Both the position numbers and the translations under genes were made by a program. From the NCBI GenBank assembly GCA_013373175.1, contig JABXII010000024.1, positions 29,109-93,108 on the forward strand: DNA of 64,000 nt, in the 5' to 3' direction. The stretch comes from Campylobacteraceae bacterium. Lineage in GTDB: Bacteria; Campylobacterota; Campylobacteria; Campylobacterales; Arcobacteraceae. Shown here piece by piece: positions 3,571 to 54,819 of this stretch. The notes under the pieces were generated by a model, which saw nothing but the letters and a program-made list of their open reading frames with translations, did no database searches and had not been told where the DNA came from. Position 1 is the first letter of the stretch, and each line of letters starts with the position of its first letter.

Positions 3571-4098
3571 TTACTTATTAAAAGATATTGAGTTGTAATT
3601 ATATATTACACTCTCTGCAAGTTCCAGCATCATGATATTGATTTTTTTAAAGTTTTCATCTTTGATATTTATTAATAACTTGTCATATACATTTGCATAA
3701 GGGTAGATTGTAAAGTATATATACTCTTTTGAACGATTCTCTTTATCTAACTCTTTAAACCAAACCGCTAGCATTGAGAAATATAACATTGATGGATTAA
3801 AAACTCTTTTTGATTCTTCTATTTTCTCAAACTCTTTTGTTAAAGAATTATTTATAAAATCATATGCTTTTAATACAGCAGAAATTCTATAATGTTTTTT
3901 GTTTTTAATATAATGTTCTGTTGGGAAAGTTACATTATTAATTTGAGTTAACATCTCATCAGAGATTTTATTGATATAATCAACTACCTCTTTATCGATA
4001 TTAAAAAAACTTTCTTCATTATCTTTATATGAAAGAATTAAGTCTTTACAAAATAGTAGTAAGGCTTCTGTTTTTATTTTAGATAAGTTTAAAATCAT
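3571..4098 (-). CDS. Hypothetical protein
   Basis: 175-aa ORF, no family recognised. Confidence 0.6.
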   Translation of the reverse strand: MILNLSKIKTEALLLFCKDLILSYKDNEESFFNIDKEVVDYINKISDEMLTQINNVTFPTEHYIKNKKHYRISAVLKAYDFINNSLTKEFEKIEESKRVFNPSMLYFSMLAVWFKELDKENRSKEYIYFTIYPYANVYDKLLINIKDENFKKINIMMLELAESVIYNYNSISFNK

Positions 4099-4206
4099 AC
4101 ACTATTCTATCAATTTTTTGTTAAAAGTCTCTGTTAAGATTAAATTTAAGAGCAATTAGGATAAAATATAAGAATTTTAAAAACTTTTAAGGAAAAAAGG
4201 AATTTA

Positions 4207-6015
4207 TTGGAACCAATTGGTATATTAAAAGAAGGTCAGATATACGATCTTCAAACAGCGGAGGCTTTAAACTTAAGTGGAGATGAGATTAAAGCTGACA
4301 ACTCTCCTGAATCTCTTGAAATATTAAGACATTCATGTGCTCACTTAATGGCACAAGCAATTAAAGAATTATACCCAGATGCGAAATTCTTCGTAGGGCC
4401 TGTAGTAAAAGAAGGTTTTTACTACGACTTTAAAACCGAAGAAAAAATATCAGAAGAGGATCTTCCAAAGATTGAAAAGAAGATGAAAGAATTAGCAAAT
4501 GCTAAACTTCCTATTGAAAGATATGAAGCATCTAGAGAAGAAATTCAAACAAAATTTGCAAATGATGAATTAAAGCAAGCAGTTCTTTCTAACATCACAG
4601 ATAACACATTAACACTTTATAAACAAGGTGAATTTGAAGACTTATGTAGAGGACCTCACGTACCTAATACAAGAATGATTAGAAGCTTCAAACTTACAAG
4701 AGTTGCAGGTGCATACTTAGGTGGTAATGAAGAAAACGAAATGATTACAAGAATCTATGGTATTGCTTTCTTTGACAAAAAAGAGCTAAATGACTATGTA
4801 AGAATGCTTGAAGAAGCTAAAAAAAGAGACCATAGAAAACTAGGAACTGAATTAGAACTTTTCACATTTAGTGATGATGTTGGTGCAGGTCTTCCTATGT
4901 GGCTACCAAATGGAGCACGTCTTAGATCAAAACTAGAACATATCTTATATAAAGCGCATAGAATAAGAGGATATGAACCAGTACGTGGGCCTGAACTACT
5001 TAAATCTAAGATGTGGGATATTTCAGGGCACAATGCTAACTATAGTCAAAATATGTACTATACTACTATTGATGAACAACAATATGCAATGAAACCAATG
5101 AACTGTGTTGGTCATATTCAAATATTTAAAAACTCTTTAGTATCATATAAAGACTTACCAAAAAAACTTTTTGAATATGGTGTTGTTCACAGACATGAAA
5201 TGTCTGGTGCTATGCATGGATTATTCAGAGTAAGAGAATTTACTCAAGATGATTCACACATTTTTTGTACGCAAGATCAAATGAAAGATGTAATCTTTGA
5301 AGTTTTAGAATTTGTTGATTCTTTACTAAAAGTATTTGATTTTAAATATGAAATCGAAGTTTCTACAAAACCAGAAAAAGCAATTGGTGATGATACATTT
5401 TGGGAAAAGACAACAAAAGGTATCATGGATGCACTTGATGAAAAAGCTATTTCTTATGGTATTGATGAAGGTGGTGGAGCATTCTATGGTCCAAAAATTG
5501 ACATCAAAATTCTAGATGCTATTGGAAGAAAATGGCAATGTGGTACTGTTCAAGTAGATATGAACTTACCAAGTAGATTTGAAGCTGAATTTATCAATGA
5601 AAAAGGTGAGAAAGAACAACCAGTAATGATTCATAGAGCAATCCTTGGTTCATTTGAAAGATTCATTGGAATCTTAACTGAACACTGTGCTGGTGAGTTC
5701 CCATTTGTAATTGCACCAACACAAGTTATTTTTGTGCCAATTGCAGATACACATGTAGAGTATGCAAAATCATTACAAAAAGAACTTTTAAATAATGAAA
5801 TTGATTCAAAAATATTTGATATGAATGAATCATTAAATAAAAGAATTAGAATGGCTGAAAAGCAAAGAGTTCCAATGATTATTGTTGTTGGAGATGAAGA
5901 GGTTGCAAATGAGACTGTTGCATTGAGAGATAGAAGAAAAAGAGAACAGTCAAATATGAGCAAGAATGAATTTATTAATATGTTAAATGAAATTATATCA
6001 GGGAGTAAAATTTGA
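4207..6015 (+). CDS. thrS: Threonyl-tRNA synthetase (TTG start)
   Basis: Motifs [52 protein letters not shown]. Confidence 0.97.
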
Positions 6016-7394: not shown

Positions 7395-7428
7395 AAAAAG
7401 GTAGAAGATTAACTCTTCTACCTTTTTT
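7395..7428 (+). terminator. Intrinsic terminator after rplT
   Basis: AAAAAGGTAGAAGA-TTAAC-TCTTCTACCTTTTTTT. Confidence 0.85.
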
Positions 7429-52090: not shown

Positions 52091-52971
52091 ATATACTGAT
52101 TATTGAAAGCGAAATTTACCTCGCTCAAAAAGTTGTCTCTAGACTCTTAGATGACGGACATAATTGTGATTTTGTAGAATCACCAAACATTGATAATCTT
52201 ACAAAAGATTACGATATTATTTTACTATCTACTTCACTGCCTGCTGCTTTATGTAAAACAATAATTAGAAGATATAGTGATTCAATTATTTTACTTCTTG
52301 TATCATATATTTCAGATGAAACTGTTACTGACCCGATTAAAGAGGGTGCTAAAGATTATATTATGAAACCATTTATAATGGATGAGCTTGTAAGAAAAAT
52401 ATATCACTATAGAGAATGTAAATCTATAAGAAAAGAGCTACATACATTAAGAGACTACCTTAACTTCCAATTTGAAGAAGTAGATACAAGTAACCATGTG
52501 TTACCAACATCTTTTCCAACACTTATTGAAACAAATTCACAAATTTGTGCTGATAAGTTAGCATTTGAGTTAGTTAGAAAGCTAGATTTACAAATGAAAT
52601 TTATCTCATTGTCAAGTGATAATTGGCAAAAAAGAGTAAATGAGAAATTTAGTGGAATCATATACTTAACTGACTATCACAGTCTTAAAAAAAGTACAAA
52701 AGAGAACTTAAATAAACTTATTGAAGATAAAAAATGTATTATTGTCTCTTTAGAAAAAGAAGAAGATTTCCCTTACAATAAAATAGAGTTTGAAAAAGAA
52801 GATAACCTTCTTATGACAAACAATATAATGACTATAAACGATTATGTTAAGATGATGGTTTTATCATATCAAACAAAATACCCGGATACTGAACTTTCTA
52901 AAAAACTTGGTATCTCAAGAAAATCTCTTTGGGAAAAGAGAAAGAAACTTGGAATAGAGAAGAAGAAATAA
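52087..52971 (+). CDS. Orphan atypical response regulator, HP1021/Cj1608-like, degenerate receiver plus C-terminal HTH
   Basis: Receiver-like fold with LLSTSLP in place of LLDxxLP, IMKPF retained, Fis-like HTH YPDTELSKKLGISRKSLWEKRKKLGI; directly after ispDF as in Helicobacter and Campylobacter. Confidence 0.82.
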   Translation: MNILIIESEIYLAQKVVSRLLDDGHNCDFVESPNIDNLTKDYDIILLSTSLPAALCKTIIRRYSDSIILLLVSYISDETVTDPIKEGAKDYIMKPFIMDELVRKIYHYRECKSIRKELHTLRDYLNFQFEEVDTSNHVLPTSFPTLIETNSQICADKLAFELVRKLDLQMKFISLSSDNWQKRVNEKFSGIIYLTDYHSLKKSTKENLNKLIEDKKCIIVSLEKEEDFPYNKIEFEKEDNLLMTNNIMTINDYVKMMVLSYQTKYPDTELSKKLGISRKSLWEKRKKLGIEKKK

Positions 52972-53450
52972 TGAGAAAACTATTTTTAACTGTTTTTTAT
53001 AGTGGACTAAGTCCAAAAGCACCAGGTACGGTAGGAAGCTTTGTATCTCTTATCTTAGGTGTTTTATTATTACAATATATTCCAGAGTCAACTATGTTCT
53101 TACTTGCCTTCTTAATCTCAGTTATAGCTGTAAGAGAGATAAACAAGTATGAAGAAGAAGTTGGAGAGCATGATAGCAAAGAGATTGTTATTGATGAACT
53201 TGCTGGTATGTGGATTGCCCTTTCTATTTGTGGTATTACACCTGAAAATATGTATTACCTAGCTCCTATTGCTTTTGTATACTTTAGAATCTTTGATATT
53301 TGGAAACCTTCTATTATAGGGAAGATTGATAGAGATGTAAAAGGTGGTTGGGGTGTTATGGGTGATGACATCGTAGCTGGACTTGCTGCTGGTATTGCTG
53401 CTAGTGGAACTTACTATTTAATTGAAAGATTTATCTTACCTACAATGTAA
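52971..53450 (+). CDS. pgpA: Phosphatidylglycerophosphatase A
   Basis: SPKAPGTVGSFVSLILG; DELAGMWIAL; GGWGVMGDDIVAG. ATG at 52971 (TAATG overlap) preferred over the ORF-track start at 52929. Confidence 0.93.
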   Translation: MRKLFLTVFYSGLSPKAPGTVGSFVSLILGVLLLQYIPESTMFLLAFLISVIAVREINKYEEEVGEHDSKEIVIDELAGMWIALSICGITPENMYYLAPIAFVYFRIFDIWKPSIIGKIDRDVKGGWGVMGDDIVAGLAAGIAASGTYYLIERFILPTM

Positions 53451-53567: not shown

Positions 53568-53708
53568 AGATTGTAAAAGAAGTGATTGCTTTTTGTAAGG
53601 TCAAGGCGAAGTTTTAAATTTTTGAGGAGCATACTTAAAGTATGTGACGAATAAATTTAAAACTTCAACGCAGAGATTGCTAAAATAAGATTACTTATTT
53701 TACAATCT
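53568..53708. repeat. Nested palindromic intergenic element (REP/MITE-like)
   Basis: Outer imperfect IR 53568-53586/53690-53708 (17/19), perfect 14-bp IR 53608-53621/53653-53666, central CATACTTAAAGTATG palindrome, flanking GATTGCT direct repeats. Confidence 0.7.
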
Positions 53709-54819
53709 TAGCGAATTCATCGAAGATATATTTCGACTCATGAGGACCCGGACTAGCCTCTGGGTGATGTTGAACAGAGAAAATCTCTTTGTTTTTATAT
53801 TTAACACCCTCAATAGTTCCATCAAATAAGTTCTTATGCGTAATCTCAGCAATTTCTACAATACTATCTGGAACATTATAGTTGTGGTTTTGTGCAGTGA
53901 TTTCTACAACCATTGAATCAGGATTTGCAACTGGGTGGTTACCCCCATGTTGTCCAAATGGTAATTTATATGTGTCATGTCCATGTGCAATAGATAACAT
54001 TTGGTGTCCTAAACAAATAGCAAACATAGGGATATTTGCAGTGATTAGTTTTTGAACTTGTTCTTTTTCTTCTGTTAAAGTAAGTGGATCACCAGGACCA
54101 TTTGATAAGAAGATACCACCAATTTCATTTGCTTCGAATCTTGCAATTAAATCCTCAGCTTTAAATGTAGCTGGAACTACTTCTACTTCAAGACCAGACT
54201 CTACTAATTCATTTAAGATATTTCTTTTTACACCAAAGTCAATTACAACTACTTTTTTATCACTCATTACAGCTTTGTTGTAAGCTTTATTTTCATGGTT
54301 CCATGCACCGTTTTTATGTACATAAGCTTCTTTTGTAGATACTTCTTTAATGTAGTTAACATCTTCAATTCTAGGACTTTGCTCTAATTTAGCTGCTAGT
54401 TCTTCTCTATCAGAGATTTCAGTTGATGCAATCATCATCATAGCACCTTCATCTCTTATTAGTTTAGTTAAGTATCTTGTATCAATTGCAGTGATTCCAA
54501 GAACACCATGTTCTTTTAAGAATGAATCTAAATCACCTTCTGATCTGTAGTTTGAATGTTCATGGTGATAATTTCTAACTAAAACACCTTTACAGTAAGC
54601 TGTTTTACTTTCCATATCATCTGCATTTACACCTACATTTCCAATTTCTGGCATTGTAAACGTAATAAATTGACCAGCATAACTTGGGTCAGAAATAATT
54701 TCTTGATACCCTGTTAATGATGTATTAAATACAATTTCTCCAACTGCTGTACCAGTTGCACCAAATGATTTAGCTTCTAAGAATGTTCCATTTTCTAAAT
54801 AAATCCACACTTTTTGCAT
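53695..54819 (-). CDS. carA: Carbamoyl phosphate synthase small subunit
   Basis: FNTSLTGYQEIISDPSYAGQ; FAICLGHQMLSIA; FSVQHHPEASPGPHES. Confidence 0.97.
   Translation of the reverse strand: MQKVWIYLENGTFLEAKSFGATGTAVGEIVFNTSLTGYQEIISDPSYAGQFITFTMPEIGNVGVNADDMESKTAYCKGVLVRNYHHEHSNYRSEGDLDSFLKEHGVLGITAIDTRYLTKLIRDEGAMMMIASTEISDREELAAKLEQSPRIEDVNYIKEVSTKEAYVHKNGAWNHENKAYNKAVMSDKKVVVIDFGVKRNILNELVESGLEVEVVPATFKAEDLIARFEANEIGGIFLSNGPGDPLTLTEEKEQVQKLITANIPMFAICLGHQMLSIAHGHDTYKLPFGQHGGNHPVANPDSMVVEITAQNHNYNVPDSIVEIAEITHKNLFDGTIEGVKYKNKEIFSVQHHPEASPGPHESKYIFDEFAKIVK

Follow-up and report, generated by a model that had tools for sequence, protein, structure and literature searches.

To our knowledge, ERIC elements have been recognized for more than 30 years with neither a known transposase nor a settled function. 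The ERIC element, also named IRU or RU-1, is a 127-bp enterobacterial repeat with short terminal inverted repeats and TA ends (PMC2229807, PMC10969869), and a 2024 review gives its range as the Enterobacteriaceae and Vibrionaceae (PMC10969869). ERIC fusions that lengthen proteins at the C-terminus have been described (PMC2759123). As summarized in two reviews, ERIC insertion at gene 3′ ends in Yersinia affects the mRNA in an orientation-dependent manner, via an RNase E site (PMC2229807, PMC10969869, citing De Gregorio 2005). GTAG/CGTC REPs, by comparison, measure 20-40 bp and bear an unpaired GTAG/CGTC tag, the CGTC stems being 8-9 bp long and starting with AT (Di Nocera 2013, PMC3733652). Correia/NEMIS, RUP and Rickettsia palindromic elements are miniature palindromes that lie close to genes and in some cases are translated in frame; as MITE-type elements they resemble the locus studied here in kind only, by description (PMC2229807, PMC10969869). 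We found no report of ERIC in Campylobacterota in the open-licence literature. The element described below is an ERIC-family element outside its reported range. Its ERIC identity is near certain, and it very probably belongs to a set of copies that were dispersed in the past.

The element lies between carA and a convergent pgpA-like gene, within a 64-kb stretch of DNA that was analysed as a whole (the window). Its parts and neighbours, in window positions, are:

53568-53708, + strand: whole ERIC-type element, one long imperfect hairpin, matched by covariance models R1, R2 and R3
53568-53586, + strand: outer left arm, partner of the carA 3′ end; complementary to 53690-53708 at 17 of 19 positions and co-varying with the carA end in orthologues
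53600-53608, + strand: left conserved box GTCAAGGCG (AAGGCG in ERIC); TCAAG invariant in 61 copies; aligns with ERIC
53608-53621, + strand: inner stem, left arm; perfect inverted repeat, 15 of 15 helix pairs showing both-side changes among copies
53624-53651, + strand: apical module GAGGAGCATAC-TTAAA-GTATGTGACGAA; 6-bp hairpin between GA/GA mismatches, matching ERIC GGAGCTTACATAAGTAAGTGAC
53653-53666, + strand: inner stem, right arm; perfect inverted repeat with both-side pair changes among copies
53666-53674, + strand: right conserved box CAACGCAGA (AACGCAG in ERIC); at least 90% conserved in 61 copies; aligns with ERIC
53690-53708, + strand: outer right arm; on the − strand, the last codons of carA, the stop codon and a few bases after it
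53695-54819, − strand: carA, carbamoyl-phosphate synthase small subunit, antisense to the element (TIGR01368, E 1.6e-135)
52929-53450, + strand: pgpA-like gene, convergent left neighbour, start provisional (NF008288, phosphatidylglycerophosphatase A, E 1e-29, under the curated cut-off)

All strings and coordinates quoted for the site in the initial annotation were found correct on re-check, including the perfection of the 14-bp inverted repeat, the extent of complementarity between the outer arms, and the presence of the last carA codons and stop codon (53695-53697) inside the outer right arm. For the carA-site region, the + strand reaches a folding energy of −48 kcal/mol (z = −7.5, unequalled by any shuffle) and the − strand one of −35.8 (z = −6.9). 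The carA end has two alternative partners: the nearer segment 53670-53690 in the minimum-energy fold and the far arm 53568-53586 in the centroid fold. The window contains seven perfect inverted repeats of 14 bp within 60 bp, against 0.2 expected from first-order Markov sequences. These analyses confirmed that 53568-53708 forms one long hairpin with conserved internal loops, far above chance. Further perfect inverted repeats of at least 14 bp within 60 bp are found at 7395, 23555, 31078, 34055 and 47603; they are probably terminators and gave no matches to the ERIC models.

A blastn search of the element against its own genome returned only itself, and 26 of 60 genomes searched, own genome included, gave matches, many at genes other than carA. 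Within the own genome six other copies were missed in this way, and a covariance model was thus needed to find them. This model (R1), built from 61 aligned copies of the Arcobacter family, identified seven copies in the genome (E 5e-22 to 7e-10), preceded by carA, nrdB, hypD, secF, guaA, htpG and guaB, and matched the window site at 53571-53704 (E 1e-23); E-values from the models, here and below, are rough owing to shortened calibration. The carA copy is the only one in the window, as originally noted, and the six others lie elsewhere in the genome. Within the family (Arcobacteraceae), copies are present in 81 of 104 genomes, at 1 to at least 31 per genome, and a sample of the phylum (Campylobacterota) has them in 104 of 397. 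The element is thus intergenic, dispersed and multicopy. The carA site is occupied in at least 12 genomes; it lacks the element in G009, which has a plain terminator-like hairpin instead, and in G012, and carries half an element in G027.

Alignment of the copies defined a common architecture. From the outside inward, an outer stem that differs between loci is followed by the box GGTCAAGGCG opposite CAACGCAGAGA, then by roughly 15 pairs of inner stem, and last by the 6-bp apical hairpin between GA/GA mismatches (GGAG...TGA). The hairpin has three conserved internal loops, and the distance from left-box start to right-box end is 74-78 nt in nearly all copies. With a total length of about 130-141 bp, the element agrees with the description of ERIC as an imperfect palindrome of about 127 bp forming one long stem-loop. 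In the 61-copy alignment, 91% of structure cells are paired (99.7% in the apical helix, helix 5) and 33 of 38 pairs show changes on both sides. The covariation score is 0.609, versus 0.200 after shuffling and at most 0.178 when the structure is slid; the structure was drawn from the same alignment and kinship inflates the counts, the margin being nonetheless large. Compensatory change extends even to the coding end of carA and the far arm, which co-vary in carA orthologues: the combination is TTTACAATCT and AGATTGTAAAA in the window, TTTACTATTT and AAATAGTAAAA in L008, and TTTACAATATT and AATATTGTAAAA in L010. The initial annotation had proposed a dispersed element rather than a one-off terminator and had named in advance two outcomes, a lack of further copies and a lack of compensatory changes, that would speak for the latter. 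Both came out the opposite way, and the seven genomic copies together with the strong compensatory changes in the stems bear the proposal out.

The initial annotation had also mentioned, as an unverified impression, similar elements elsewhere in bacterial genomes. An exact search found the apical module in several phyla, and genome-wide searches with R1 detected 14-30 copies in single genomes, including that of Serratia sp. M24T3. Together, these matches led us to suspect ERIC. A covariance model restricted to 12 E. coli and Serratia copies (R3) has a single match in the 64-kb window, at 53572-53701 on the + strand, spanning positions 1-133 of 133 (E 3.7e-8). R3 also matches other family and Campylobacterota copies, with a best E of 2e-12; among the seven own-genome copies, the guaA copy is unmatched and three others are weak. 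With a wider gammaproteobacterial model (R2), the window site was found at 53570-53690 (E 5e-14), the next match in the window having an E of 1.7. In the reverse test, genuine ERIC copies were drawn from E. coli records, and R1, which was built without E. coli ERICs, matched each of these end to end, on the expected strand and located at the ERIC (E 4e-4 to 7e-3 in 15 kb), and it matched Serratia copies with an E of 4e-10. The resemblance mentioned there is therefore real: ERIC carries GGAGCNTAC-loop-GTANGTGAC at its apex, as well as the flanking boxes AAGGCG and AACGCAG. The likeness further extends to the stabler strand, which is the same in E. coli ERIC, to the placement and direction relative to the preceding gene (in Serratia and E. 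coli), to a chromosomal location and to occasional C-terminal fusions. The element differs from ERIC in several respects. Its stems are AT-rich, and the inner stem is not CCCC/GGGG; the outer arms vary by locus and include the last codons of the gene; copy number is low, and the phylum is a different one. When checked against the short terminal repeat, TA ends and target duplication of ERIC, the outer arms proved to be inverted repeats but locus-specific.

Primers for ERIC PCR presumably end in the variable stem, and exact primer sites are therefore not expected here. The copies described here bear on the dispute over ERIC-PCR typing in Arcobacter: two A. butzleri genomes have been reported to lack ERIC primer sites (PMC3566208), yet true ERIC relatives exist in the family.

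The position of the copies relative to genes follows a strict rule. At all seven sites of the own genome, the right-hand gene, antisense to the element, has its end there, and the same orientation is seen in 51 of 51 family copies whose context was usable; although these include many orthologues, they represent about 20 different genes, as counted from C-terminal sequences. At these sites the stop codon lies 6-54 nt from the right box, mostly 18-36, and the left gene may run in either direction (33 and 18 cases). Serratia ERICs obey the rule in 12 of 12 cases and E. coli ERICs at both loci. In complete genomes, 118 of 139 copies are co-directional with replication, a bias that may reflect host-gene orientation only. 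Beyond the family, some copies are found immediately ahead of tRNA or tmRNA genes or in the gaps between stable RNA genes, where a terminator role would be harmful. These data bear on the view that the locus is a bidirectional intrinsic terminator of local origin between convergent genes, resembling ERIC by convergence. Such a view would suit the position behind stop codons, the A-rich and T-rich ends of many copies, and the terminator-like hairpin found in place of the element in G009. It explains neither the two boxes, GTCAAGGCG and CAACGCAGA, with the GA mismatches of the apical module, which are superfluous for a terminator yet kept at unrelated genes and in other classes, nor for the specificity of R3 within 64 kb; moreover, the copies between stable RNA genes would end needed transcripts. 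We consider a terminator of local origin very improbable.

The two strands of the element are not equivalent. With RNA energies, the + strand, antisense to the gene, is the stabler in 60 of 61 copies, by a mean of 14.4 kcal/mol; with DNA energies this holds for 59 of 61 (mean 4.5). Stems of the + strand contain 269 G.T cells versus 33 A.C cells, and next to the GA mismatches 54 of 61 copies have a G.U pair, the others A-U or G-C. The + strand is likewise the stabler in E. coli ERIC. This asymmetry argues against a DNA palindrome lacking strand preference. Since the best-folding strand is antisense to carA, we infer that the most strongly selected structure is either an RNA read toward carA or single-stranded DNA of the + strand.

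The first of these forms raises the question of a conserved structured RNA, acting in cis or in trans from the + strand and inherited vertically as a non-mobile family. The strong compensatory evolution with conserved non-canonical loops, the filled carA site in at least 12 genomes and the RNA-like strand preference would all be explained. What fits poorly is a copy number ranging from 0 to at least 31 at different genes, the homology to a dispersed element, ERIC, and the lack of an Rfam match (the best match in the window scores 20 bits, against a cut-off of 70, and none falls at the element in divergent loci). A non-mobile RNA family thus appears somewhat unlikely, conserved function and past mobility being mutually compatible. 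If instead the working form were folded single-stranded DNA, it might be handled by a putative recombinase in the manner of attC sites or REPs. That the strand asymmetry persists with DNA energies, that orientation relative to genes is fixed, and that copies are chromosomal and hardly occur on plasmids would agree with this; Blast searches of plasmids and phages for the element, and of viral contigs for the exact apical pattern, gave no match. Yet no enzyme was found, RNA shows G.U pairs and GA mismatches just as commonly, and no attC-type R boxes were seen in the copies. We hold the single-stranded DNA form to be quite unlikely. An integron attC site as such, considered on the ground that the strand antisense to the gene end folds, was dropped when no R-box pattern was apparent by eye.

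The initial annotation had described the locus as REP/MITE-like and pointed to a Y1 (RAYT) transposase. The first description was right as regards a dispersed palindromic element, which turned out to be ERIC/IRU, a name not given at the time; a REP of the GTAG/CGTC type is not supported. Like GTAG/CGTC REPs, the element is palindromic, dispersed and downstream of genes, and in both cases G.T pairs in the stem suggest single-strand folding (Di Nocera 2013, PMC3733652). Unlike them, it measures about 140 bp, comprises several helices and is associated with no RAYT. Size, tag and stem (a 6-bp apical stem not starting with AT) rule out membership in the GTAG/CGTC families. The suggested link to a transposase found no support either: PF01797 is absent from the own genome (G000) and from the copy-rich relatives G032, G112 and G090, while G036, of the same family, has 17 Y1 transposase matches, many identical, and zero element copies. 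Y1 genes in the vicinity of copies are at about 1 kb (G006) and 2.6 kb (G108), with other genes between. This pattern of presence and absence across genomes led us to reject the Y1/RAYT link. A REP-type element whose folded single strand is mobilized by a Y1/RAYT transposase is scarcely credible, even though one strand is built to fold and the element sits near gene ends as REPs do (PMC3733652).

Two readings in terms of target duplication were also discarded. The GATTGCT direct repeat flanking the core is present as described; it is not a target duplication, since the second of its copies belongs to the conserved CGCAGAGATTG and orthologues have not retained the repeat. Direct repeats of a terminator arm that flank the core at carA, guaB and nrdB resembled target duplications but are a consequence of the nested palindromes.

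Recent movement is not in evidence: the own-genome copies are divergent, several occupy sites common to relatives, and neither a transposase nor an insertion event was seen. The variation in copy number between genomes, the existence of carA sites without the element or with half of it, and the set of near-identical hairpins in one myxobacterial MAG, whose homology is less certain, count toward past mobility, which is likely. We propose that ERIC copies once spread as non-autonomous insertions, moved by a putative enzyme acting in trans, and would then have been retained where the hairpin was useful or harmless behind a gene. Transcription of carA or of the convergent pgpA into the element would yield an RNA with a long hairpin overlapping the carA stop codon. 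This hairpin would most likely set mRNA 3′-end stability and insulate carA from pgpA, in line with reports on ERICs that follow Yersinia genes. By this analogy, an old miniature insertion acting on RNA 3′ ends is a possible mechanism, which we advance tentatively. A role confined to mRNA 3′ ends is at odds with the copies directly before tRNA and tmRNA genes in other phyla, and a role in the carA mRNA with the finding that the better-folding strand is not the carA mRNA strand.

Copies long drifted in another phylum provide three things that close copies cannot: a deep covariation that fixes the structure, a test of the folding strand and a strict orientation rule at stop codons. In our judgement it is almost an even matter whether ERIC, rather than being special to enterobacteria and vibrios, is an old, widespread bacterial element that occurs in Campylobacterota, in Desulfobacterota-type lineages, in many gammaproteobacterial ones and perhaps in Bacillota and Myxococcota, and whether its one foldable strand and single orientation behind stop codons reflect a shared, hypothetical factor that acts on the folded strand as RNA or single-stranded DNA.

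Several additional loci were recorded. C-terminal fusions such as those known for ERIC seem to occur in relatives: copies form, in frame, the C-terminal tail of small ORFs in G006 (L192:1028-1695) and G108 (L194:~3960-4220), and in G006 the ORF, including its element, is repeated nearby. A Myxococcales MAG, JAHFDT01 (L111-L168), carries about 20 hairpins that are nearly identical and share the apical module. Most lie between convergent genes, and the TTA at the end of the hairpin itself often serves as stop codon for the gene on the right. Homology of this hairpin to the Arcobacter-family element is less certain: retrieval of the myxobacterial and acidobacterial loci had relied on the apical pattern itself, and at E 1e-3 the genomes concerned yield no copy with R1. 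At L113, L114, L120, L143, L147, L149, L160, L186 and L189, copies immediately precede tmRNA or tRNA genes, fall within the Serratia 23S-5S spacer region or separate tRNA-Ile from tRNA-Ala. In Sulfurimonas-like MAGs, several copies lie among tRNA genes in alternating orientation. Finally, a tandem pair of ERIC-like hairpins precedes ssrA (tmRNA) in Candidatus Kurthia equi (L143), and in Kurthia sibirica (L136:161-770) three such hairpins, in tandem and 238 bp apart, adjoin the tRNA-Phe gene.
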